Part shown: piece after piece, positions 19,549 through 37,561 of the stretch
How the letters are laid out: each line of letters opens with the position of its first letter
Numbering within the stretch: position 1 is the stretch's first letter
Source of the DNA: Flavobacteriales bacterium
GTDB lineage: Bacteria; Bacteroidota; Bacteroidia; UBA10329
Length of the DNA: 37,561 bases
Direction: 5' to 3'
Assembly (NCBI GenBank): GCA_016124845.1
Contig: WGMW01000050.1
Span: forward strand, 1 to 37,561
The notes under the pieces: generated by a model
Told to the model about the DNA's origin: nothing
Database searches by the model: none
Seen by the model: the letters and a program-made list of their open reading frames with translations, nothing else
Translations under genes and position numbers: made by a program

Positions 19549-21099
19549 CTATTGGATTACAACCAGTTTATTGGCTTGCCACCTGCTTCCATTGACCGAT
19601 AGCAGATAGGTGCCAGATTTCAGGTCAGATACGTCCAACGTGAATCGCTGAGAACCCACGGCAGTACTGCCAGAACTTGCAGTTTTGACCATCCTTCCGC
19701 AACCATCGAAAAGTGAAATCCCGACCATGGATTTCCTCTCTACATCGAATTCGACAAAGAGTTGATCCCGCACCGGATTCGGGTAAACTGAAATAGGTGG
19801 TTCGGTCGATTCCGAAGCAATTCCAAGGTTAAGGTCGTTCTTGTATTTGGCGATGAACACATCGAACGAGGCCATGATGGCCACCTCTCCGACCACCCAA
19901 ATATCACCGTTGGCATCAAAAGTGGCCGCATATGCGAAATCATCACTTGTTCCGATCGGAGTAATGACACTTCCTGCCGACCCAAAATCAGTGTCAACCG
20001 TTCCATCAGCCAAGAATCTCGACAGGGAAATATCTTGCGAAGACATGGCTGAATTTCCGATCACGATCAACTTACCGTCCGGTTGAATGAGTACCCTTTG
20101 GCCATAGTCATTTCCTGCTGTTATCGAGTGGTAAACCACTCCACCAACCCCGAACGAAGTGTCGTAGGTCCCGTCTTGGTTGAAACGCGCAATGGTAAAG
20201 ACTGAGCCCGAAGCCTGACCGCTTTCGCCCACCGCTATGATTTTACCATCCGGTTGTAGCGCAACGTGGCGACAGAAACTTCCGGAGATGCCCAATTGGT
20301 AGTGAATAGTTCCGTTTGTGCCGAAGCTATTGTCCAAACTGCCGTTCGGATTGATTCGGGCCATGGCGAATTCCCACCCAATGGATCCTGCCGTGTTCCC
20401 GGCAACAATGATCTTTCCATCACTCTGTATCAGACCCGACCCAACGAGATCTACAATATTGCTGAATGGTGTTACCGCAAGTCCGTCACCGCTGAATGAT
20501 TGGTCGATGGAGCCATTGCTGTTCAGTCGCATGACCGCGGCAACGTAATCATTGGTCGTCACCGTAGTTCCGAAGATCACGATCCGTCCATCCTGCTGAA
20601 TGTCCACCGCCACAGGTATGTCCGAGATTCCGCTTGGATTGTAAATGGCGATCCCATCGTTGTCAAACGTATCATCCCATGAGCCATCGGGATTGAGTCG
20701 GTAAACACCGAACCCATCCGTGCCATTTACATCAGTCGGTCCCACAAACACCATTTTCCCATCCGGCTGTAGCACACCTCCGAACAATCGGTCATTTGAC
20801 GGCCCAAGGTCAAGGTCTTTCCAGCCGTTTGTTCCAAAATCCGTGTCGGCATCCCCATTGGGAAAGCATCGATAGACGAACATCTGGTTGTCGCTGCCAT
20901 TGTGCGAATAACCTGCAACAACCACTTTGCCATCGCTTTGGATCAATACCACCCGGCCATGTTCGGCATTACTGCTGGTGCCGATCGTATGTAGACCATT
21001 CTGGCTGAAAGCACCATCCAAGAAACCGGGTTGAGCCAGTGAGTGATCGAAGAAGCATGAAAGCAGAACTGAGAAAAGGAGTGAACCTGTTATTTTCAT
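19549..21099 (-). CDS. Secreted delta-60 repeat protein with type A T9SS sorting domain
   Basis: The 516-residue protein has a signal peptide (MKITGSLLFSVLLSCFFD, cleavage near SLAQ) and about seven copies of a roughly 55-60-residue repeat. Each repeat carries a QPDGK-I-V-x-G strand and a later R-x-x-x-DG-x-x-D-x-x-FG turn (for example LIQSDGKIIVAGN, NPNGSLDNSFGTNG), the delta-60 (DUF5122) pattern of a beta-propeller-like fold. The C-terminal 75 residues (ISVYPNPVRDQLFVEF, LKSGTYLLSVNG) are a type A type IX secretion sorting domain, so it is exported across the outer membrane and probably attached to the surface. It is a single-gene unit between two plus-strand genes. Confidence 0.92.
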   Translation of the reverse strand: MKITGSLLFSVLLSCFFDHSLAQPGFLDGAFSQNGLHTIGTSSNAEHGRVVLIQSDGKVVVAGYSHNGSDNQMFVYRCFPNGDADTDFGTNGWKDLDLGPSNDRLFGGVLQPDGKMVFVGPTDVNGTDGFGVYRLNPDGSWDDTFDNDGIAIYNPSGISDIPVAVDIQQDGRIVIFGTTVTTNDYVAAVMRLNSNGSIDQSFSGDGLAVTPFSNIVDLVGSGLIQSDGKIIVAGNTAGSIGWEFAMARINPNGSLDNSFGTNGTIHYQLGISGSFCRHVALQPDGKIIAVGESGQASGSVFTIARFNQDGTYDTSFGVGGVVYHSITAGNDYGQRVLIQPDGKLIVIGNSAMSSQDISLSRFLADGTVDTDFGSAGSVITPIGTSDDFAYAATFDANGDIWVVGEVAIMASFDVFIAKYKNDLNLGIASESTEPPISVYPNPVRDQLFVEFDVERKSMVGISLFDGCGRMVKTASSGSTAVGSQRFTLDVSDLKSGTYLLSVNGSRWQANKLVVIQ

Positions 21100-26804: not shown

Positions 26805-26908
26805 GACCACGGTTTGGTCGAAATATCAGGTTGGGGAGAACCTTATGTTATTTTCAGCGTACACACGCACCTGAGTGCGAGGCGAACCATTGGTTCTGCC
26901 GTGCAGAA
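26805..26908 (+). promoter_or_regulatory. Structured, ATG-free leader of the first giant surface-protein gene
   Basis: Four short inverted repeats crowd the region before the first giant gene: GACCA/TGGTC (26805-26819), CGCAC/GTGCG with a CTGA loop (26866-26879), GAACC/GGTTC (26884-26896) and TTCTGC/GCAGAA (26894-26908). The last two share bases and cannot form together. No convincing TAnnTTTG element was found here on the plus strand. Whether this is a regulatory leader or chance is open. Confidence 0.3.
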
Positions 26909-26917
26909 ACGACAGGT

Positions 26918-29900
26918 TTGAGAACAGTTCTATTCCCAATAAGATTTTCATTGATGCTTCTGGCATCCATGCTTGTAGCAAGTGCATGGTCGGGGCAAAT
27001 ATTCGGGCAGGCCATTACGGTCAATCAGGCCACTTCAACCACAGAAATTGAAGATTATGTTCAGAACGTGCTGCTCGGTTCGTGTGTCACCGCATCGAAT
27101 ATCACCTATGTTGGCGCAACAGGAGCTGCAGGAACATTCGATGGTTCGGGAACCGTTCTGGGTCTCAATGCCGGGGTCGTTCTTACATCCGGTTCGTCTG
27201 CATTGGCGGTTGGACCTGATAATGCCAATAGCATTGGAATGTCTAATGGACTCGGAGGCGATCCTGACCTGACGGTTCTTGCCTCTGGAATTCCAACGTA
27301 TGATGCCGCCATTCTCGAATTCGATTTTGTTCCGCAAAGCGACACGCTTCGGTTCAATTACATTTTCGGTTCGGAGGAATATCCGGAATACGTGAGTTCG
27401 GGTTACAATGATGTGTTCGGATTCTTCATCTCAGGTCCTGGAATTACAGGGCCTTTTACGGGTGGTGCAGCGAATATTGCGCTCATTCCGGGTACGTCAA
27501 CGCCTGTTGCGATCGATAACGTGAATAACGGCTACAGCGGTTCCGAGCCATCTACGGGCCCATGTACCAACTGCCAGTATTATGTCGATAATTCAAGCGG
27601 TCCTGCCGTGCAGTATGATGGTTATACAACCGTTCTTACCGCGCAGGTGGTGGTAACGCCATGCCAGACCTACCATATTAAAATTGCCGTGGCCGATGCA
27701 GGCGATGGCGCATTGGATTCGGGAGTTTTTCTGGAAGAAGGAAGTTTCTCCTCAAGTGGGGAAGATGCAGTTGAGCTGGCAGCCGTTTCAGGTGTTTCGG
27801 GCATTTACGAAGGTTGCGACATCGGAACATTCGTGTTCAGGCGTTTGCCTGGTTCCAGCAACGCTGCGCCACTTACAGTAGGCTACAACGTTTCGGGAAC
27901 GGCCACTCCTGGTGTGGATTACAACACATTGCCTGGCTCCATCACCATTCCTGCTGGCGAGGATTCGGTCATTCTCAATGTTCAAGGCGTTTTGGATTAC
28001 ACCACCGAAGGAACGGAAACCATCATCCTCGATCTTGTTGGCGGAGGTTGTACGTGTACGGCACCGCCATCGGTGAACATGAATATTCTTGACAACGATG
28101 TGCCGTTGTCGCTCACCACTTCGGGAACTACCACCATCTGTTTGGGCGAGTCGGCCAACCTTACGGCCAATCCCGCAGGGAGTATTTCGCCTTACGTCAG
28201 CAGTTGGGACAATGGCGCGCCTTCAGGCAATAATGTGGCGGTTTCGCCAACCGTTACCACTACGTATACCTATACTGTAACGGATGCGTGCAGCGGTCAG
28301 TCTCTTACAAGCAGCGAAACCGTTACGGTTGTCACACCCGATTTTACCGTGGATGACCAGCAGCAATGTTTTGATGGCAACGCCTTCAACTTCACGAATA
28401 CAGGCGCAAGTGGCGGAACCGTGACGCATTACTGGGATTTCGGTGACGGGAACACGTCCACGGTGGAGAATCCTGTTTACAGCTACGCTGCGAGCGGAGA
28501 TTACACGGTAACGCATTACGTGATCTACACGGCCGCTGGTTGTACTGCTTCGGCCGATGCGTTGATCAATGTCTATCCCGAACCTTCCGTTCTGGCCATT
28601 GTGGATCATAATGTCTCGTGTGTCGGAGGTTCTGACGGTGGGCTTTCGGCTTTCGTAACGGGCGGCACTTCACCGTATCAATATCAATGGTCTCCGAACG
28701 GTGAGACCACGGTTTCAATCACCAACCTCACCGCAGGGAATTACACCGTGACGGTTACGGACAACAGCGGCTGTACCGATATGGTCACGGGAACAATTAT
28801 TCAAGATGACTCTGAACTCCCAACGGCCATTTGTCAGGATGTATCGGTTTACATCAACGCAAGTGGAAATGCCACGCTTTCGGCCTCGCAGGTCAATAAC
28901 GGTTCGAGCGACAATTGCGGCATTGCATCATTGGTGGTTTCGTCCAACGTGTTCAGCTGCGCGGATGTTGGCGGCAATGCGGTTGTTCTGACCGTCACCG
29001 ATGTAAATGGAAATGTGGCCACCTGTAACGCCACGGTTACCGTGCAGGACACGATTCCGCCAACGGCCATCTGCCAGGATCTGACGGTCACACTCGATGC
29101 TTCTGGAAATGCTTCGGTCACAACTGCTCAGATCGACAACGGATCTTCAGACAACTGCGCCATTCAAAGTATTTCGCTCAACCCGAACGCCTTTACCTGT
29201 GCCGACCTCGGAGCGAACACGGTCACGCTTACGGTTACCGATGTTGGTGGAAATACTTCCACCTGCGATGCAACGGTTACTGTTCTTGAAGACACCGACC
29301 CGATCGCGGTCTGTCAGGATGTTTCTGTGAATTTGGATGCCACGGGAAATGTGTCTGTTACGGGTGCGCAACTTGGTTCAGGTTCTACCGACAACTGCGC
29401 CATTGTGGATATTTCGGTGACGCCTTCAGATTTCACCTGTTCCGAAATTGGAGACAATCCAGTTACGGTAACCGTTACGGATGCCAATGGAAATTCGGCC
29501 ACCTGCTCGGCAACGGTTTCGGTTTCGGACAACCTCGCTCCGAATGCTGTCTGTCAGAACATCACGGTGCAATTGGACGCTTCGGGCAATGCTTCCATCA
29601 CAGCTGCGGATGTGGATGGCGGCTCGACCGACAATTGCGGAATTGCCAACCTCTCGGCTACGCCAACAGCATTTTCGTGTGCGGATATTGGAGCCAAAAC
29701 GGTAACGCTTACCGTGACGGATGTCAACGGACTCGTTTCTACCTGCAATGCAACCGTAACGGTGGAGGATGCGCTTCCGCCAACCGCTGTCTGTCAGGAT
29801 ATTACCGTGGCGTTGGATGCCAATGGCATGGCTTCGATTGTCGCTTCGCAGATCGATGCTGGTTCGAGCGACAATTGCAGCGGTTCGCTCACCATTTCCA

Positions 29901-32900
29901 TCAGCCCCAACTCCTTCGATTGTACCGTCAGCTCACCCGGTCAAGTGGAACTCACCGTAACAGATGCGGCTGGAAATTCCTCTACCTGTACAGCAATTGT
30001 AACGCTGATCGAGAACACGCCTCCGACAGCCGTCTGTCAGGATATTACCATTCAGTTGGATGCCACGGGAAACGCCAGCATTGTGGGTGCCGATGTGGAT
30101 GGTGGAAGCACGGATAATTGCGGCATCGCCAGTTTGGATGTCGATCCTTCCACATTTGATTGCAGCAACATTGGAGAGAACTCAGTAACGCTTACAACGA
30201 GCGATGCCAACGGAAATTCATCCACGTGTACGGCCATTGTAACGGTGGAGGAAAACGTTGCGCCAACGGCCGTTTGCCAAGACATTACGGTGCAGTTGGA
30301 TGCCAGCGGAAACGCCAGCATTGTGGCAGCCGATGTCGATGGCGGAAGTTCGGACAACTGTGCCATTGCCAGCATCTCGGCCGGTCCAACCGCGTTCAAT
30401 TGTTCCAACACGGGAGTGAATACGGTAACGCTCGCGGTTGAGGATTTCAACGGGAACAGTTCAACCTGTACTGCAAATGTGACGGTGGAAGATGTAACGC
30501 CTCCAACGGCTGTTTGTCAGGATGTAACGGTGGCGTTGGATGCTTCTGGAAACGCGGTGGTCAACGAATCTCAGGTAGATAACGGCTCTTCGGATAATTG
30601 TGCCATCGTTGATATTTCGCTCACGCCAAGCACGTTCAATTGTACGAACGTGGGCACGGCACAGGCAGTACTCACAGTGACCGATGCCAGCGGGAACGCA
30701 TCGACCTGCAATGCAACCATCACGATAGAGGAAAATCTGCCGCCAACGGCTGTCTGTCAGGACGTTACGGTTCAGTTGGATGCTTCGGGAAATGCAAGCA
30801 TTGTGGCAGCAGATGTCGATAATGGTTCTTCAGACAACTGCGGCATCGCAGACCTTACGGTCGATCCTTCCGTGTTCGATTGCAGCAATTTGGGAGAAAA
30901 TAGCGTCACGCTTACGGCCACCGATGCCAGCGGGAATACGGGTAGTTGTACTGCCGTAGTTACGGTTGAGGACAACATCGATCCAACCGCAATTTGTCAG
31001 GACATTACCGTTCAGTTGGATGCTTCGGGCAGCGCGGTCATTTCGGCTTCGGATGTGGATAATGGAAGCTCCGACAACTGTTCTGTGACCGATATTTCGG
31101 TCTCGCCAAACAGTTTCAATTGCAGCAATCTGGGAACGGCAACGGTTACATTGACCGTTTCCGATGCCAACGGAAATACATCTACCTGTACGGCAAATGT
31201 TACGGTTGAAGATAACGTGCCGCCAAGTGCCATCTGTCAGGATATTACAGTTCAGTTGGATGTGAACGGTAGTTCCACCATTGTTCCTTCGCAGATCGAC
31301 AACGGCTCGGCCGATGTCTGTGGCATTGCCAATTTGAGTTTGGATGTAACGGATTTCGACTGTTCCAATGTGGGGTTGAACACGGTTCAGCTGACCGTGG
31401 AAGACAACAGCGGAAACGTTTCCACGTGCTCGGCAACCGTAACGGTGCAAGACAACACCGATCCGAACGCGGTCTGCCAGAATGCAACGGTTTACTTGGA
31501 TGCGAACGTAACGATAGCGGTCGACCCATTGTCCATTGATAATGGTTCGTCCGACAATTGCGGCATTGATTCGTACGCACTTTCGCAAAGCGATTTCCTA
31601 TGTTCGGATATCGGCCAGACCATCGTTACGCTCACGGTGGCCGATGCCAGCGGAAACAGGGACGATTGCATTGCCGTTCTGACCGTTCTCGACACGGTTT
31701 CTCCGATCATTTCTGGTTGTCCGACCGACATTCAGATCACACCAGACAGTTCCGATTGTACGCCTTCTGTTACATGGGCCGAACCTACGGCAAGCGACAA
31801 CTGCTCGGCAACCATGACAAGTAATTTCTCATCGGGAGCTAATTTTCCTGTTGGAACAACCGCTGTGACGTACAATGCTGAAGATCCATCAGGCAATACC
31901 GCCTCGTGTTCTTTCACCGTTACCATTCAACCATCGGAAGTACTTCTGTCACTTTCTTCGCCAACATTGGCATGCGGCTACAACATCAGTTGCAATGGGT
32001 TAGAGGATGGCGAGGCCAATGCGAGTGTTTCGGGTGGTTGCACGCCTTATCAGTTTCAATGGTCCAACGGACAGACCACGCAGACAGCGGTCGGTCTGGC
32101 GGCTGGAATCTACATTCTGGTGGTGACGGATGCCAATGGTACGCAAGCAACCGACACCATTGTTCTAACCGAACCTCAACCGCTGGTCACCGATAGCATC
32201 ACGAGCCCGACATTTGTTGGCGGAACCAATGTTTCGTGTGCGGGTGCCAACGATGGCTCCATCGATCTGAACATTCTTGGCGGAGCCGATTGCCAGAACT
32301 ATTCCTATTTCTGGACGACTGAAAATGGATTTAGCGCTGTGGATGAAGACCTCACGGGTGTGATCGCTGATACGTATACCCTCACCGTAACAGATGTGAA
32401 TGGTTGCACGCATGTCGATAGCATTACCTTGACAGAGCCAGAGCCGATGGACCTTCAGGCGTTTCCGACCACGTACAACGGTTACAATATTTCGTGTTTC
32501 GGTCTTTCGGATGGCTTCATCAACTTGGAAGTTTCTGCGGGAACCGCTCCGTATTCGTATCAATGGAGCAATGGCGAAACCACGCAGGACATCGATTCGC
32601 TGGCCGTGGGTACGTATGATGTGGCTGTGACCGATACGAATGGCTGTCAAGGGTCGCTCAGCGTGACGTTGACCGAACCGACCGACCTTGCGGTTGCAAC
32701 AACCGATGTGACGCAAGTGAACTGCTTTGGCGAACAGAACGGACAGGCGGTGGTGCAAGCATCGGGCGGGGTTCCGAATTACGCTTACCTATGGTCCAAC
32801 GGAGATGCAGACCCGACCTTGAATGCGGTGGGTGTTGGAACGTACCAAGTGGTGGTAACGGATGGCAACGGGTGCCAGGATTCGCTCACAGTGAACATCA

Positions 32901-34426
32901 CCAGCCCGACCGCCATTGTAGGAACCGTGGTGCAAGTGACCGATGCTACGTGTTTCGGCTATAATGATGGCAACGCGACCGTTTCTGCCACAGGTGGCGT
33001 TACTCCATATTCATACAACTGGCCCGCAGTAGGGCAGACCAACGCGACAGCAACAGACCTTTCGGCTGCAGATTACGTGTATGAAATAGAGGATGCCAAC
33101 GGCTGCGTTTTCACAGACACGCTTACGGTTTCGGAACCGGACCAGATCATTCTCGTTACTTCCAACGACACTACCATTTGCCCAGGAACAGTAGCTTCAC
33201 TTTCGGTGGAGGCGAGTGGAGGTGGAGGGACCTACCTCATTACATGGGATAACGGCCAAGGTTTTGGGAACACGTACGAACCGTATGTGACCAACACGTC
33301 CAATATTCCTGTGGTGGCTGTGGATCAGAACGGTTGCGAGGCAGTTCCGAATTCGGTGATTGTCACCACGTTCAGCCCCGTAACGGCCAATTTCGAAAGC
33401 ACGGTGGAGGACAATTGCGTTTCACCTGCCACGGTCGATTTCACCAATACAAGCATCAACGGCAGTTCGTTCAGTTGGACATTCGGCAATGCCGATTCTT
33501 CCACCCAGTTCATGCCATCGAGCGTCTATGCTGCTCCTGGTGTTTATTCAGTGCAGCTCGTAGCAACTTCGGATGATGGTTGTACCGATACCGTTTCGCT
33601 TCCACTTACTATTCACGAACTCCCTGTGGCCGATTTCGAGATTCCATATCCTGATGGCTGTTTCCCGATTGTTGTGGGTCTTTACAATCACAGCACCAAT
33701 GCGAGTACCTACTCCTGGAATTTCGGAGATGGAGATACCAGCGATGAGGCCAATCCGTACCATTTCTTCGAGAATGCTGGAGCTTACACGGTCACGCTGG
33801 TCGCCACCAACCAGTTCGGATGTTCCGACACGCTGACGGTTGACACGGCCGTGTTCGCCTATCCGCGGCCAACGGCTTCGTTCAATGCCATTTCCACAGG
33901 AAACATCGGTGGAGACGAATTCCTCTTCAACAACACCTCTACAGGTGGAACGGAATATCTGTGGACGTTTGATGACGGTCAATCGTCCGACCTGTTTGAG
34001 CCGACCCATCAATATGATGAGTTTGGCGACTACAACGTTGTACTGAGGGTTTACAACCAGTACGGATGTTTGGACACGGCCGAGTATCACGTGCACATCG
34101 ACCTCATTTCAGGTCTGTTTGTGCCGAACGCCATGGTGATCGGAGAACCTGGAGAAGCAGGGCAGTTCCTGCCGAAAGGAGCTGGTATAGGCGAATACCA
34201 TGCGTGGGTGTTCGACAAGTGGGGTAACCAGCTTTGGGAATCTGTGGAACTGGTTGATGGAAGCCCTGCTGAAAGTTGGAACGGACGCTATCGCGGAGCG
34301 TTGGTTCCCGAAGGTGCTTACACGTGGAAGATCGAAGCCAAATTCAAGGATGGCGAAATATGGAAAGGCATGAAACAGCCTTTCGGGAAACCGAAGAATG
34401 TAGGTTCTGTTACCGTCATCTATTGA
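26918..34426 (+). CDS. Giant T9SS-exported multidomain surface protein (choice-of-anchor L, HYR-like repeats, SprB, PKD, type B sorting domain)
   Basis: About 2502 residues. Domain order by position: signal peptide (to about 27013, ending GQIFGQA), choice-of-anchor L domain (27040-27760), Calx-beta-like domain (27770-28100), Ig-like segment (28100-28340), PKD with WDFGDGNTS (28340-28590), one SprB-type repeat (28600-28800), 12 HYR-like repeats (28820-31702), one true HYR domain (31703-31930), five SprB-type repeats (31960-33150), an Ig-like segment, three PKD domains (33385-34100) and a C-terminal type B (gliding-motility-associated) sorting domain (34110-34423, with VFDKWGNQLWES). It is probably a cell-surface adhesin or gliding-type filament protein. 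The frame has no early ATG: TTG at 26918 keeps a basic signal-peptide start, and ATG at 26954 would leave a signal without positive charge. Confidence 0.92.
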   Translation: MRTVLFPIRFSLMLLASMLVASAWSGQIFGQAITVNQATSTTEIEDYVQNVLLGSCVTASNITYVGATGAAGTFDGSGTVLGLNAGVVLTSGSSALAVGPDNANSIGMSNGLGGDPDLTVLASGIPTYDAAILEFDFVPQSDTLRFNYIFGSEEYPEYVSSGYNDVFGFFISGPGITGPFTGGAANIALIPGTSTPVAIDNVNNGYSGSEPSTGPCTNCQYYVDNSSGPAVQYDGYTTVLTAQVVVTPCQTYHIKIAVADAGDGALDSGVFLEEGSFSSSGEDAVELAAVSGVSGIYEGCDIGTFVFRRLPGSSNAAPLTVGYNVSGTATPGVDYNTLPGSITIPAGEDSVILNVQGVLDYTTEGTETIILDLVGGGCTCTAPPSVNMNILDNDVPLSLTTSGTTTICLGESANLTANPAGSISPYVSSWDNGAPSGNNVAVSPTVTTTYTYTVTDACSGQSLTSSETVTVVTPDFTVDDQQQCFDGNAFNFTNTGASGGTVTHYWDFGDGNTSTVENPVYSYAASGDYTVTHYVIYTAAGCTASADALINVYPEPSVLAIVDHNVSCVGGSDGGLSAFVTGGTSPYQYQWSPNGETTVSITNLTAGNYTVTVTDNSGCTDMVTGTIIQDDSELPTAICQDVSVYINASGNATLSASQVNNGSSDNCGIASLVVSSNVFSCADVGGNAVVLTVTDVNGNVATCNATVTVQDTIPPTAICQDLTVTLDASGNASVTTAQIDNGSSDNCAIQSISLNPNAFTCADLGANTVTLTVTDVGGNTSTCDATVTVLEDTDPIAVCQDVSVNLDATGNVSVTGAQLGSGSTDNCAIVDISVTPSDFTCSEIGDNPVTVTVTDANGNSATCSATVSVSDNLAPNAVCQNITVQLDASGNASITAADVDGGSTDNCGIANLSATPTAFSCADIGAKTVTLTVTDVNGLVSTCNATVTVEDALPPTAVCQDITVALDANGMASIVASQIDAGSSDNCSGSLTISISPNSFDCTVSSPGQVELTVTDAAGNSSTCTAIVTLIENTPPTAVCQDITIQLDATGNASIVGADVDGGSTDNCGIASLDVDPSTFDCSNIGENSVTLTTSDANGNSSTCTAIVTVEENVAPTAVCQDITVQLDASGNASIVAADVDGGSSDNCAIASISAGPTAFNCSNTGVNTVTLAVEDFNGNSSTCTANVTVEDVTPPTAVCQDVTVALDASGNAVVNESQVDNGSSDNCAIVDISLTPSTFNCTNVGTAQAVLTVTDASGNASTCNATITIEENLPPTAVCQDVTVQLDASGNASIVAADVDNGSSDNCGIADLTVDPSVFDCSNLGENSVTLTATDASGNTGSCTAVVTVEDNIDPTAICQDITVQLDASGSAVISASDVDNGSSDNCSVTDISVSPNSFNCSNLGTATVTLTVSDANGNTSTCTANVTVEDNVPPSAICQDITVQLDVNGSSTIVPSQIDNGSADVCGIANLSLDVTDFDCSNVGLNTVQLTVEDNSGNVSTCSATVTVQDNTDPNAVCQNATVYLDANVTIAVDPLSIDNGSSDNCGIDSYALSQSDFLCSDIGQTIVTLTVADASGNRDDCIAVLTVLDTVSPIISGCPTDIQITPDSSDCTPSVTWAEPTASDNCSATMTSNFSSGANFPVGTTAVTYNAEDPSGNTASCSFTVTIQPSEVLLSLSSPTLACGYNISCNGLEDGEANASVSGGCTPYQFQWSNGQTTQTAVGLAAGIYILVVTDANGTQATDTIVLTEPQPLVTDSITSPTFVGGTNVSCAGANDGSIDLNILGGADCQNYSYFWTTENGFSAVDEDLTGVIADTYTLTVTDVNGCTHVDSITLTEPEPMDLQAFPTTYNGYNISCFGLSDGFINLEVSAGTAPYSYQWSNGETTQDIDSLAVGTYDVAVTDTNGCQGSLSVTLTEPTDLAVATTDVTQVNCFGEQNGQAVVQASGGVPNYAYLWSNGDADPTLNAVGVGTYQVVVTDGNGCQDSLTVNITSPTAIVGTVVQVTDATCFGYNDGNATVSATGGVTPYSYNWPAVGQTNATATDLSAADYVYEIEDANGCVFTDTLTVSEPDQIILVTSNDTTICPGTVASLSVEASGGGGTYLITWDNGQGFGNTYEPYVTNTSNIPVVAVDQNGCEAVPNSVIVTTFSPVTANFESTVEDNCVSPATVDFTNTSINGSSFSWTFGNADSSTQFMPSSVYAAPGVYSVQLVATSDDGCTDTVSLPLTIHELPVADFEIPYPDGCFPIVVGLYNHSTNASTYSWNFGDGDTSDEANPYHFFENAGAYTVTLVATNQFGCSDTLTVDTAVFAYPRPTASFNAISTGNIGGDEFLFNNTSTGGTEYLWTFDDGQSSDLFEPTHQYDEFGDYNVVLRVYNQYGCLDTAEYHVHIDLISGLFVPNAMVIGEPGEAGQFLPKGAGIGEYHAWVFDKWGNQLWESVELVDGSPAESWNGRYRGALVPEGAYTWKIEAKFKDGEIWKGMKQPFGKPKNVGSVTVIY
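28820..31702 (+). repeat. Twelve tandem HYR-like repeats, exact 240-nt period
   Basis: Units begin at 28820, 29060, 29300, 29540, 29780, 30023, 30263, 30503, 30743, 30983, 31223 and 31463. All are 240 nt (80 codons) except the fifth, which is 243. The consensus starts PTAVCQDITVQLDASGNASI, has DNGSSDNC about residue 27-34, then F-x-C and a late STC. Units 6, 7, 9 and 10 are the most alike in DNA. Each holds four cysteines in fixed places. The array would be prone to unequal recombination. Confidence 0.92.
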
Positions 34427-34608
34427 TGGATGAACGACATGTTTTTATCGACAGACAACACAACCCGGTTAAGTTTTACACAGTATTAGTAGACCAAAAG
34501 TTCGCATTGGTCGAATCGCTCTTGCCCGTTGCATAACCTTTTCTGTAATGTGGCGTAGAACACACCTCTAAATGGAAAGTGTTTTTAAGCTTCCGAATCA
34601 GAGGGCGA

Positions 34609-37561
34609 ATGGATAAAACCTTTACAGACCTTTTCGTCTCGCTTCGAGATAAGAGCAGATCGGTCATCTGCTTTTTTGCGGTCCTATTTCTTTTTCAGAG
34701 CCCTTCGTTTGCCCAGCTGACCGTTACGGAGGCTACCACCAATGCCGAAGGAGCCGCATTGATCGAGAACGTTTTCCTCGGTTCATGTGTCTCAGTATCT
34801 AACGTCCAATACTCAAGCAGTTACAACCCTGCGGTTGGCGAATTTTCGAATGGAAATACAACGAACATCGGTCTTGATTATGGTATAATTATGACTTCTG
34901 GCCAAGCGAATTTGGCAATCGGACCGAACGATACAAAGTGTGCAGAAAGACAGAATGGTGGCCCAAGTGACAGCGACCTTGCATCGTTGGCAGGAGCGAG
35001 TATCCGTGACCGCACCGTGCTTGAATTTGATTTCATTCCTCAGAACGATACGATATCTTTTGATTATGTGTTCGCTTCTGAAGAGTACCATGAATGGGTC
35101 AACGCTGGCTACAACGATGCATTTGGTTTCTTCATCTCAGGGCCAGGTATTGCGGGGCCTTACAGTGGCGGTGCCCAGAATATTGCTCTTATCCCAGGGA
35201 CATCGACCCCAGTTACAATCGACAACGTCAATAATGGTCAGAAGGGACCGACAAGTTGCGGAAGTACGCCTGCGGCAGCAACAGGCCCATGTACCAACTG
35301 TTCCTACTTTGTGGACAATACAGGTGGGTCTACGATTCAGTACGATGGGTTTACAACCGTTCTTACTGCAACAGCGATTGTCACTCCATGTCTGACCTAC
35401 CATATTAAATTGGCGGTTGGTGATGCAGGAGACCAACGATACGATTCAGGGGTTTTCCTGAAGGGTGGCAGTTTCTCCGCTGGCGGAGGCGTAACGGTTG
35501 AGTTGGAAACCACTACCATTCCACCGGGCATCTACGAAGGTTGTAATGATGCATGGTTTATTTTCAGAAGGGTTGCGGGAGCCGATAATACGAGCTCTGT
35601 CACCGCAAATTTTTTGGTTACGGGAACTGCGATACCTGGAGTTGATTATTCCGCATTGCCATCTTCTGTTACCATCCCTGCGGGTCAGGATTCGGTGGCG
35701 TTCAACATCAGTGTGTTTCTCGATTACATCACCGAAGGCCCTGAGACCATTACTGTAACGCTGGAAGATCCACCATGCGCTTGCGAGGCCCCGGGTTCTG
35801 CAACCGTTACTATTCTTGACAATGACATTCCATTGGCGGTTACAACCACAGGAACCACCACCATCTGTCTTGGCCAGTCGGCCGATCTGACGGCAAACCC
35901 AAGCGGTTCTCAGTCGCCTTACACAAGTGGATGGGACAACGGTCTGCCAGCTGGCGATAACCAAACAGTGTCACCAACCACCACCACAACTTATACATAC
36001 ACGGTTACCGACCAATGTGGAGGTCAGACCGTATCGAGTTCAGAGACCATCACCGTCATCAGACCTGACTTTACCGTAGATGATGCCCAACAATGTTTGG
36101 ATGGCAATAGTTTTCAATTCACCAATACAGGAGCCACAGGTGGCTCCGTTACGCATTTATGGGATTTCGGTGATGGCAACTCATCAAACCAAGAAAATCC
36201 GAGTCACAGTTATGTGGCCGATGGCGATTTCACGGTAACGCATTACATCATCTTCACGGCTTCGAACTGTACGGCAGATGCTTCGGCCACGATCACGGTT
36301 TACCCAGAACCAGTGATCACCGCCACGGTCGATCAGAACGTGATCTGTTCGGGAGGAACAGACGGTCAGATCTCCACTTCTGTTTCTGGCGGAACGCCTA
36401 CGTACACATATTCTTGGTCTCCTGGCGGGCAGACCACCTCTTCAATTACAGGCCAAGCGGTTGGAACTTACACGGTTACGGTTACTGATGCCAACGGTTG
36501 TACCGATTCGGACGCGCAGACCATCACGCAGGTGGATCCCGTGAATCCGACTGCCGTCTGTCAGAACATCACGGTTCAGTTGGATGGTTCGGGCAACGCC
36601 ACCATCTCCGCAACAGATGTTGACAATGGTTCATCTGATAACTGTGGCATCGCCTCGATGGTGGTTTCACCGAATGCGTTCACGTGTGCCGAACTGGGCG
36701 CAAATACGGTTACGCTAACGGTAACAGACGTAAACAGCAACACAGACGATTGTACTGCTACTGTAACGGTTGAGGACAACGTGGATCCAACGGCCGTTTG
36801 TCAGAACATCACCGTTTATCTGGATGCTTCTGGAAATGCTTCGATCACCGCAGCCGATGTTGACGGAGGTTCAACCGATAACTGCTCTGTAACTGTTTCG
36901 GCTACTCCTTTGGCGTTTACGTGTGCCAATGTCGGTGCAAATTCGGTGACGCTCACAGCCACCGACCCAAGCAGCAACACCGACAATTGCACAGCCACGG
37001 TAACCGTTGCAGACACCACGGGTCCAACAGCTATTTGTCAAGATGTTACACTTTCTCTGGATGGTTCAGGAAGTCTTCTTGTACTTCCTACTGACATTGA
37101 CAACGGCTCGAATGATGCGTGTGGAATCAGCGGCATGTTTGCCAATCCAGCCGCCTTTGATTGTGCGGATATAGGCACACACACCGTCACCCTCACGGTT
37201 ACCGACAACAACAGCAACGTTTCAACATGTACATCAACCGTTACGGTTGTTGATGATGAAGCTCCAACGGCCGTCTGCCAGAACATCACGGTCTACTTGG
37301 GCGGAGCGGGAAGTGCCTCTATCGTGGCAAGCGATGTCGACAATGGTTCAAGCGACAACTGTTCGGTGAGCCTTTCTGCCACGCCCCTTTCGTTCGACTG
37401 CTCAAGCACAGGTACGAACACGGTCACGCTAACTGCCACCGACCCGAGCAGCAACACGGACAACTGCACGTCAACGGTTACGGTGCTTGATACGGTGAGT
37501 CCGACCGCAATCTGCCAGAACATCAGCGTTTATTTGGATGGAGCCGGAAGTGCCACCATCG
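34609..37561 (+). CDS. Second giant surface protein, tandem paralogue, cut off by the window end
   Basis: From the ATG at 34609 the frame stays open to the last base (984 whole codons plus one base), so this gene runs beyond the window. It has a signal peptide (MDKTFTDLFVSLRDKSRS, hydrophobic core, cleavage after PSFAQ), then the same order as its neighbour: choice-of-anchor L domain (34730-35480), Calx-beta-like (35490-35825), Ig-like (35830-36060), PKD with WDFGDGNSS (36065-36300), SprB-type repeat (36310-36535), then HYR-like repeats from 36547. Clear sequence likeness across all of these shows a tandem gene duplication. The C-terminus, and thus the expected T9SS sorting domain, cannot be seen. 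A 182-bp gap separates the two genes; no perfect promoter element was found in it. Confidence 0.9.
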   Translation, partial: MDKTFTDLFVSLRDKSRSVICFFAVLFLFQSPSFAQLTVTEATTNAEGAALIENVFLGSCVSVSNVQYSSSYNPAVGEFSNGNTTNIGLDYGIIMTSGQANLAIGPNDTKCAERQNGGPSDSDLASLAGASIRDRTVLEFDFIPQNDTISFDYVFASEEYHEWVNAGYNDAFGFFISGPGIAGPYSGGAQNIALIPGTSTPVTIDNVNNGQKGPTSCGSTPAAATGPCTNCSYFVDNTGGSTIQYDGFTTVLTATAIVTPCLTYHIKLAVGDAGDQRYDSGVFLKGGSFSAGGGVTVELETTTIPPGIYEGCNDAWFIFRRVAGADNTSSVTANFLVTGTAIPGVDYSALPSSVTIPAGQDSVAFNISVFLDYITEGPETITVTLEDPPCACEAPGSATVTILDNDIPLAVTTTGTTTICLGQSADLTANPSGSQSPYTSGWDNGLPAGDNQTVSPTTTTTYTYTVTDQCGGQTVSSSETITVIRPDFTVDDAQQCLDGNSFQFTNTGATGGSVTHLWDFGDGNSSNQENPSHSYVADGDFTVTHYIIFTASNCTADASATITVYPEPVITATVDQNVICSGGTDGQISTSVSGGTPTYTYSWSPGGQTTSSITGQAVGTYTVTVTDANGCTDSDAQTITQVDPVNPTAVCQNITVQLDGSGNATISATDVDNGSSDNCGIASMVVSPNAFTCAELGANTVTLTVTDVNSNTDDCTATVTVEDNVDPTAVCQNITVYLDASGNASITAADVDGGSTDNCSVTVSATPLAFTCANVGANSVTLTATDPSSNTDNCTATVTVADTTGPTAICQDVTLSLDGSGSLLVLPTDIDNGSNDACGISGMFANPAAFDCADIGTHTVTLTVTDNNSNVSTCTSTVTVVDDEAPTAVCQNITVYLGGAGSASIVASDVDNGSSDNCSVSLSATPLSFDCSSTGTNTVTLTATDPSSNTDNCTSTVTVLDTVSPTAICQNISVYLDGAGSATI
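36547..37561 (+). repeat. HYR-like repeat array of the second giant gene (partial)
   Basis: Units begin at 36547, 36787, 37024, 37264 and 37501 (incomplete), giving lengths 240, 237, 240, 237. The two 237-nt units (36787 and 37264) share SATPLAF/SATPLSF and TATDPSSNTDNC, which the other units lack, so the array has a two-unit higher-order pattern. All four complete units keep the four-cysteine layout of the first gene. Confidence 0.88.

Follow-up and report, generated by a model that had tools for sequence, protein, structure and literature searches.

Two tandem genes, A and B, at the end of a 37,561-nucleotide stretch of DNA (the window) probably encode a short and a giant T9SS rod that would be controlled together by an ECF sigma factor and would share a shuttle. 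The probability given to this explanation as a whole is about 0.7. The short protein A (~256 kDa) and the giant protein B (~650 kDa) would each begin with a Sec leader and a head built as a beta-sandwich (choice-of-anchor L with Calx-beta, Ig and PKD modules), continue in a Cys-rich HYR stalk (12 units in A and ~55 in B) with cell-proximal SprB and PKD modules, and end in a variant C-terminal signal. Both would be exported by the T9SS, and a single PorP/SprF-type shuttle, its gene lying elsewhere, would carry and hold them and would also serve a third, unlinked gene of the same signal class (the C39 gene). Since all three genes have AAC-N16-CGTA upstream, the set is probably under one ECF-type sigma factor, whose activity would yield surface filaments in two lengths at once, with a possible role in adhesion. 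A stricter proposal, that a dedicated ECF sigma factor controls exactly the T9SS substrates of one signal subclass and that a near-private giant promoter (AACCTT with TGGTCGAA) yields the two rod lengths together, is tentative and is given somewhat less than an even chance. If it is true, transcription and sorting would be matched substrate class by substrate class.

The window is all of contig C50 of a genome of 4.36 Mb in 65 contigs, and position 37561 is the contig end. The frame of gene A is complete (26831-34426, + strand); 26831 is excluded as its start because the -10 part of the promoter element lies downstream of it. The frame of gene B runs from 34579 and is open at the contig end, and its ATG aligns with an ATG in four relatives in an alignment of the A-B spacer. 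The window genes adjoining the pair encode a Na/Pi cotransporter, a LuxE-like protein, an ABC-2-like membrane protein, TyrRS, GNAT and Nramp, identities that rule them out as the sigma factor or the shuttle. A DUF5122 beta-propeller protein with a type A (Por_Secre_tail) T9SS signal is encoded at 19549-21099 on the - strand. Giant T9SS-type surface proteins in a tandem pair are in themselves nothing unusual for this phylum, as the genome holds 51 type B matches plus other giant HYR frames. A second possible tandem giant pair was seen at G000:C8:5867-27817 (L023, L024), where neighbouring same-strand HYR-repeat frames of 4,482 and 3,303 aa have no TIGR04131 match.

Table 1. Coordinates of genes A and B, their parts and related genes (window positions unless a contig is named)
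Feature	Position	Strand	Remarks
Gene A promoter element	26815..26863	+	TGGTCGAA 26815-26822, AACCTT 26839-26844, CGTACA 26858-26863
Gene A	26918..34426	+	~2,502 aa, ~256 kDa; T9SS-type surface protein; start TTG 26918 or ATG 26954
A choice-of-anchor L head	27059..27748	+	predicted beta-sandwich, pLDDT 92
A Calx-beta-like (below Pfam cut-off), Ig-like, PKD, one SprB-type module	27890..28750	+	limits approximate
A stalk, 12 HYR-like units	28820..31687	+	~80 aa each, four conserved Cys apiece
A single canonical HYR domain at stalk end	31691..31927	+	
A SprB repeats, then PKD domains	31943..34090	+	limits approximate
A variant type B-like C-terminal signal	34091..34423	+	FVPNAM.IG.PGEAG.FLPKG...GSVTVIY
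Gene B promoter element	34508..34559	+	TGGTCGAA 34508-34515, AACCTT 34535-34540, CGTAGA 34554-34559
Gene B, 5' part	34609..37561	+	start ATG 34609; rest on C30:93-16402 of the same genome
B choice-of-anchor L head	34762..35475	+	
B Calx-beta domain	35536..35826	+	
B PKD domain and first SprB repeat	36073..36429	+	
B HYR-like units 1-4 of ~55, plus start of next	36547..37561	+	
PKD-array gene with variant signal	C39:84382-89715 (L212:8382-13715)		1,793-aa frame; AACTTT-N13-CGTA element
Alternative-head gene	G004:C1:3-3533 (L074)		
Alternative-head gene	G008:C11 (L207)		
Alternative-head gene	G011:C2 (L199)		6,252-aa gene, another family

Domain architecture and C-terminal signal

An earlier note, made from the letters of the window, had placed two giant genes with the same modules here. 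Both frames were found, and their products have the same domain order and are 57% identical over 975 aa (990 bits, BLASTP); the stretches VDDQQQC and VDDAQQC, quoted in that note for the N-terminal likeness, match within this alignment. Profile searches detected choice-of-anchor L (NF038133) at 260.2 bits in A and 255.8 bits in B, both above the curated cut-off of 27, and SprB, PKD_4 and HYR in both proteins. Calx-beta passed its cut-off of 27 in B only (36.8) and scored 18.6 in A. The SprB repeats (PF13573) reached 140.5 bits over six stretches in A and 37.9 bits in the part of B that lies in the window. Structure prediction of the A head gave a beta-sandwich, for which a fold search returned generic beta-sandwiches only (CBM, MAM and GH16 folds and the gingipain K2 adhesin domain; best Z 8.2, Foldseek E 2.5e-3); as these matches are generic, a binding role for the choice-of-anchor L head is plausible, with a ligand that is not fixed by the fold. 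Two HYR-like units were predicted at pLDDT 97 as Ig-like rods, and their models resemble tandem rods such as Rib domains, SraP, RTX adhesin repeats and protocadherins (E 6e-7 to 1e-4). An Ig-like domain is roughly 4 nm long, and at ~4 nm per domain the modelled rods would be around 100 nm for A and around 250-300 nm for B. A search of the available literature found no reports on choice-of-anchor L, on HYR with T9SS giants, or on hyalin repeats in Bacteroidetes adhesins.

The earlier note also had A end in a type B sorting domain. By the curated cut-offs the signal of A and B is a divergent relative of type B and not a member: A scored 13-19 bits with TIGR04131 (cut-off 35) and 18-22 bits with CHU_C (cut-off 27), and the isolated domain gave 19.0 and 22.2 bits for A and 23.5 and 26.9 bits for B with TIGR04131 and PF13585, respectively (cut-offs 35 and 27). 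The A signal is ~30% identical to the classical type B ends of its own genome. A search of that genome with it returned A (252 bits), B (157 bits) and the C39 gene (132 bits), with the next best match at 43 bits, and the variant signal is limited in this genome to these three genes. The signal class was present in 12/12 relatives searched, most of which have a PKD-array gene of 1,775-1,885 aa; the C39-type PKD-array gene is likely a core surface protein.

The genome has SprA (contig C56, 2,044 bits) and 10 PorP/SprF genes above cut-off, spread over contigs C9, C30, C2, C3, C32, C58, C19 and C1, which, with repeats predicted as Ig-like rods, agrees with the description of A and B as duplicated giant T9SS-type surface proteins. 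The PorP/SprF-like gene suggested for the downstream side is not found there. Downstream of A is B, and downstream of B are rnhA (opposite strand) and yicC and no sprF-type gene; none of the 10 PorP/SprF genes adjoins the pair or lies on C50, and the nearest on C30 is ~81 kb from the B end. Paillat et al. 2025 (PMC12618676) showed for Flavobacterium johnsoniae that PorP/SprF shuttles are the partners of type B signals and that one orphan shuttle serves three unlinked type B substrates, none of which has a shuttle gene next to it. By analogy with these orphan substrates, one shared shuttle would be expected for A, B and the C39 gene.

Promoter element and signal class

The element at A and B reads TGGTCGAA-N16..19-AACCTT-N13-CGTA[GC]A; AAC and CGTA are separated by exactly 16 bases, and the TGGTCGAA box lies upstream of them at both genes. 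It was found by aligning the A-B spacers of five species, and the same kept blocks lie upstream of A. In every genus genome with readable 5' regions the same rare, fixed-spacing element stands at both A and B, which speaks against the earlier suggestion that the regulation of the two genes may differ. A search of nine whole genus genomes with AACCTT-N13-CGTA[GC]A gave 11 matches, each lying upstream of A or B, and 0 matches in the two genus genomes without the pair. A control pattern read backward matched every genome except one, so that a chance background of a few matches per genome is plausible for that composition; the absence of off-target matches of the element is notable but does not on its own amount to a probability.

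According to a review, the usual recognition sites of ECF sigma factors are AAC at -35 and CGT at -10 (PMC4153023); the element has both at fixed spacing, from which we infer that it is read by a sigma factor. It is rather unlikely that the element is instead a conserved bipartite transcription factor site. Such a site would fit with the TGGTCGAA box that accompanies the element at A and B and with the search for a cognate sigma factor, as a scan of ten window ORFs gave no sigma factor gene, and the ORF listing around the C39 gene no annotated candidate. In addition, the T9SS ECF factor already known, SigP of Porphyromonas gingivalis, has a different reported motif (PMC4800418). Against it, the general ECF form is just such a pair, AAC and CGT a fixed distance apart around variable sequence (PMC4153023), and the start codon follows the element after a few tens of bases. 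SigP was itself rejected as the reader on the same unlike motif.

Across several families, AAC-N16-CGTA was present upstream of 26/27 class genes (A, B, other-family giants and the PKD-array gene), a class whose members carry the variant signal or were assigned to it by orthology or head, some of those assigned by head having their 3' end on another contig. Spacings of 10 to 24 otherwise gave 0-3 matches. The -35 hexamers among class genes were AACCTT (13), AACTTT (9), AACATT (2) and AACCTA (2); one class gene (G049) and one alternative-head gene (G008) are without the element. Among the controls, AAC-N16-CGTA occurred at 3/40 classical type B genes of the own genome, 0 of them with AAC[CTA]T[TA], and at 2/76 other frames in the own loci (B removed). 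The possibility that the element tracks the head was rejected, as 80/86 head-bearing genes in the named genomes had neither the element nor the variant signal; the three head-bearing genes with AAC[CT]TT all lie within the two loci that hold variant-signal genes. The Fisher value across relatives is 4e-19, which is overstated because the targets are related to each other and the counts are not independent. Within the own genome alone, 3/3 class genes had the element vs 3/40 classical type B genes (p 0.0016). The pattern is read here as a putative small regulon that couples one sorting-signal class to one sigma factor. What is new, as far as the sequences go, is the link of one signal subclass to one promoter form, with a near-private version at A and B.

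Giant T9SS surface proteins are common in Bacteroidota, and their switches and shuttles are mostly unknown. With the element tracking the signal class, the sigma factor (which should follow the element) and the shuttle (which should follow the signal) become predictable from sequence. A rare export tag and a sigma-factor-type element in the same three genes point to one dedicated control circuit for surface filaments, and one promoter with two lengths would offer a simple handle on the roles of long and short surface rods.

History of the pair and length of gene B

Within the genus, A is followed by B in G005, G002 and G003 and by another gene in the slot of B in G004. The gene order TyrS-LuxE-NaPi-A-B is kept in G003, G004 and G005, and downstream of the B tail come rnhA and yicC (G003 and G005) or yicC (G007). 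In the tree, the A heads group in one supported clade (100/99) and the B heads in another (93/96), which places the duplication before the divergence of the species of the genus; on this phylogeny, A and B are old tandem paralogues. G053, from another family, has TyrS, LuxE and a Na/Pi cotransporter upstream of one head gene and a single giant tail with the variant signal beside rnhA and yicC, which suggests that a single giant was the ancestral state.

The earlier note took the pair to suggest surface variation, which is supported in part. In its favour, B contains homogenised blocks (units 4-7, 10-12, 31-34 and 39-42) that are up to 92-97% alike within the gene, and the G004 gene that follows A has the promoter of B and a similar leader with a different head. 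This alternative head (VPF..RTVP..K..GDFAM.GN) stands on HYR stalks in only three of the nearer genomes, G004, G008 and that with the 6,252-aa gene, and looks like head exchange on a common stalk. Against it, A in three species has 12 HYR-like units and one canonical HYR, and the units match mostly one to one and in order; B has 55 HYR-like units and one, of which the distal units (43-55) also match G005 in order. It is improbable that A and B are contingency or antigenic-variation loci that diversify the surface by swapping repeats and heads; neither donor cassettes nor inversion sites were seen.

Related arrangements were observed at other places. Near-identical long upstream DNA and leader were found upstream of 9923 in L116 and of 4737 in G011:C2, and the two genes differ in head (choice-of-anchor L vs alternative). 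L116:2120-15880 (JAJVIC010000007.1) holds, at a different chromosomal place, two variant-class head genes with two small genes between them, and both head genes have AAC-N16-CGTA.

The paralogy of A and B also allows that their common element is a mere relic of the tandem duplication and uninformative on current control, as the two upstream regions come from one ancestor. This is very unlikely, because the other upstream DNA of A and B is unlike, every genus genome read retains the spacing and the hexamers, and the same spacing stands before the C39-type gene and other-family giants with seemingly unrelated flanks. Common control by one ECF-type sigma factor is the preferred reading of the element.

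Beyond the window, frame B runs on through C30 to a stop, with a C-terminal domain like that of A; it does not stop soon after the contig end, and the two N-termini align, as the earlier note expected of a duplicated pair. The last 92 bases of C50 are exactly the first 92 bases of C30, and the best match of the last 154 codons of the window, after themselves, is the C30 start (91-95% identity). The joined frame has 6,430 codons to a stop at C30:16400, or 6,420 from the B start codon, and encodes a product of ~6,420 aa, 650 kDa, 269 Cys and pI 4.05, provided that the 92-base overlap is the true join. Its end resembles A (63% identity over the last 110 aa). The contig breaks within a homogenised repeat block (units 4-7) and the join depends on a short overlap inside a repeat; the repeat number is an estimate and may be too low. 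The join has independent support from G005, where the contig shared by A and the B head (C56) is interrupted in the same repeat block, and where the neighbours of the C30 tail, rnhA/yicC, stand next to a 5,759-aa tail that lacks a head and has the same signal. A 6,252-aa gene of the variant class is uninterrupted in G011. That gene B is shorter, or the C30 frame part of another gene, and 6,420 aa an assembly artefact, is highly improbable: an exact 92-base overlap comes more easily by chance among near-identical repeats, but C30 continues the frame, the domain order and the C-terminal signal as in A, the G005 tail and the G011 gene agree with it, and a join error could run the opposite way, through collapsed repeats. 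The start of C54 was dropped as the B tail, as it is a classical type B end, whereas C30 continues the repeat, with the 92-base overlap and the signal class of A. G000:C54:1-267 encodes the last 88 aa of a classical type B protein whose 5' part is on another contig. Overall, the pair illustrates clearly how assemblies split a giant repeat protein, the size of which is then easily underestimated.

Comparison with known systems

SprB of Flavobacterium johnsoniae is a 669 kDa T9SS gliding adhesin with the shuttle SprF. Like SprB, A and B are giant, contain SprB repeats and end in a signal related to type B, in a genome that has SprA and PorP/SprF. Unlike SprB, they have an HYR-like stalk and a choice-of-anchor L head, form a tandem pair, are not adjoined by an SprF-type gene and carry a signal below the type B cut-offs. 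The signal resembles TIGR04131 and PF13585 (CHU_C) in a partial match to the core FDKWGN..WES...W.G.Y.G..VP.GAY.W (E 5e-6 to 1e-3), whereas the subclass of A, B and the C39 gene differs from classical type B in conserved residues of its own (VPNA, PKG and SP.E.W). A likeness in shuttle use is that of Fjoh_1123, Fjoh_1720 and Fjoh_4934 with Fjoh_1677 (PMC12618676), which are likewise unlinked substrates without an adjacent shuttle gene; in contrast to these, a promoter element is common to A, B and the C39 gene as well, and their shuttle is putative. In control, the system resembles PorXY-SigP of Porphyromonas gingivalis (PMC4800418), where T9SS function is under ECF-type control, which is putative here. 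However, SigP acts on machine genes and has another reported motif, whereas the element described here marks substrates of one signal class.
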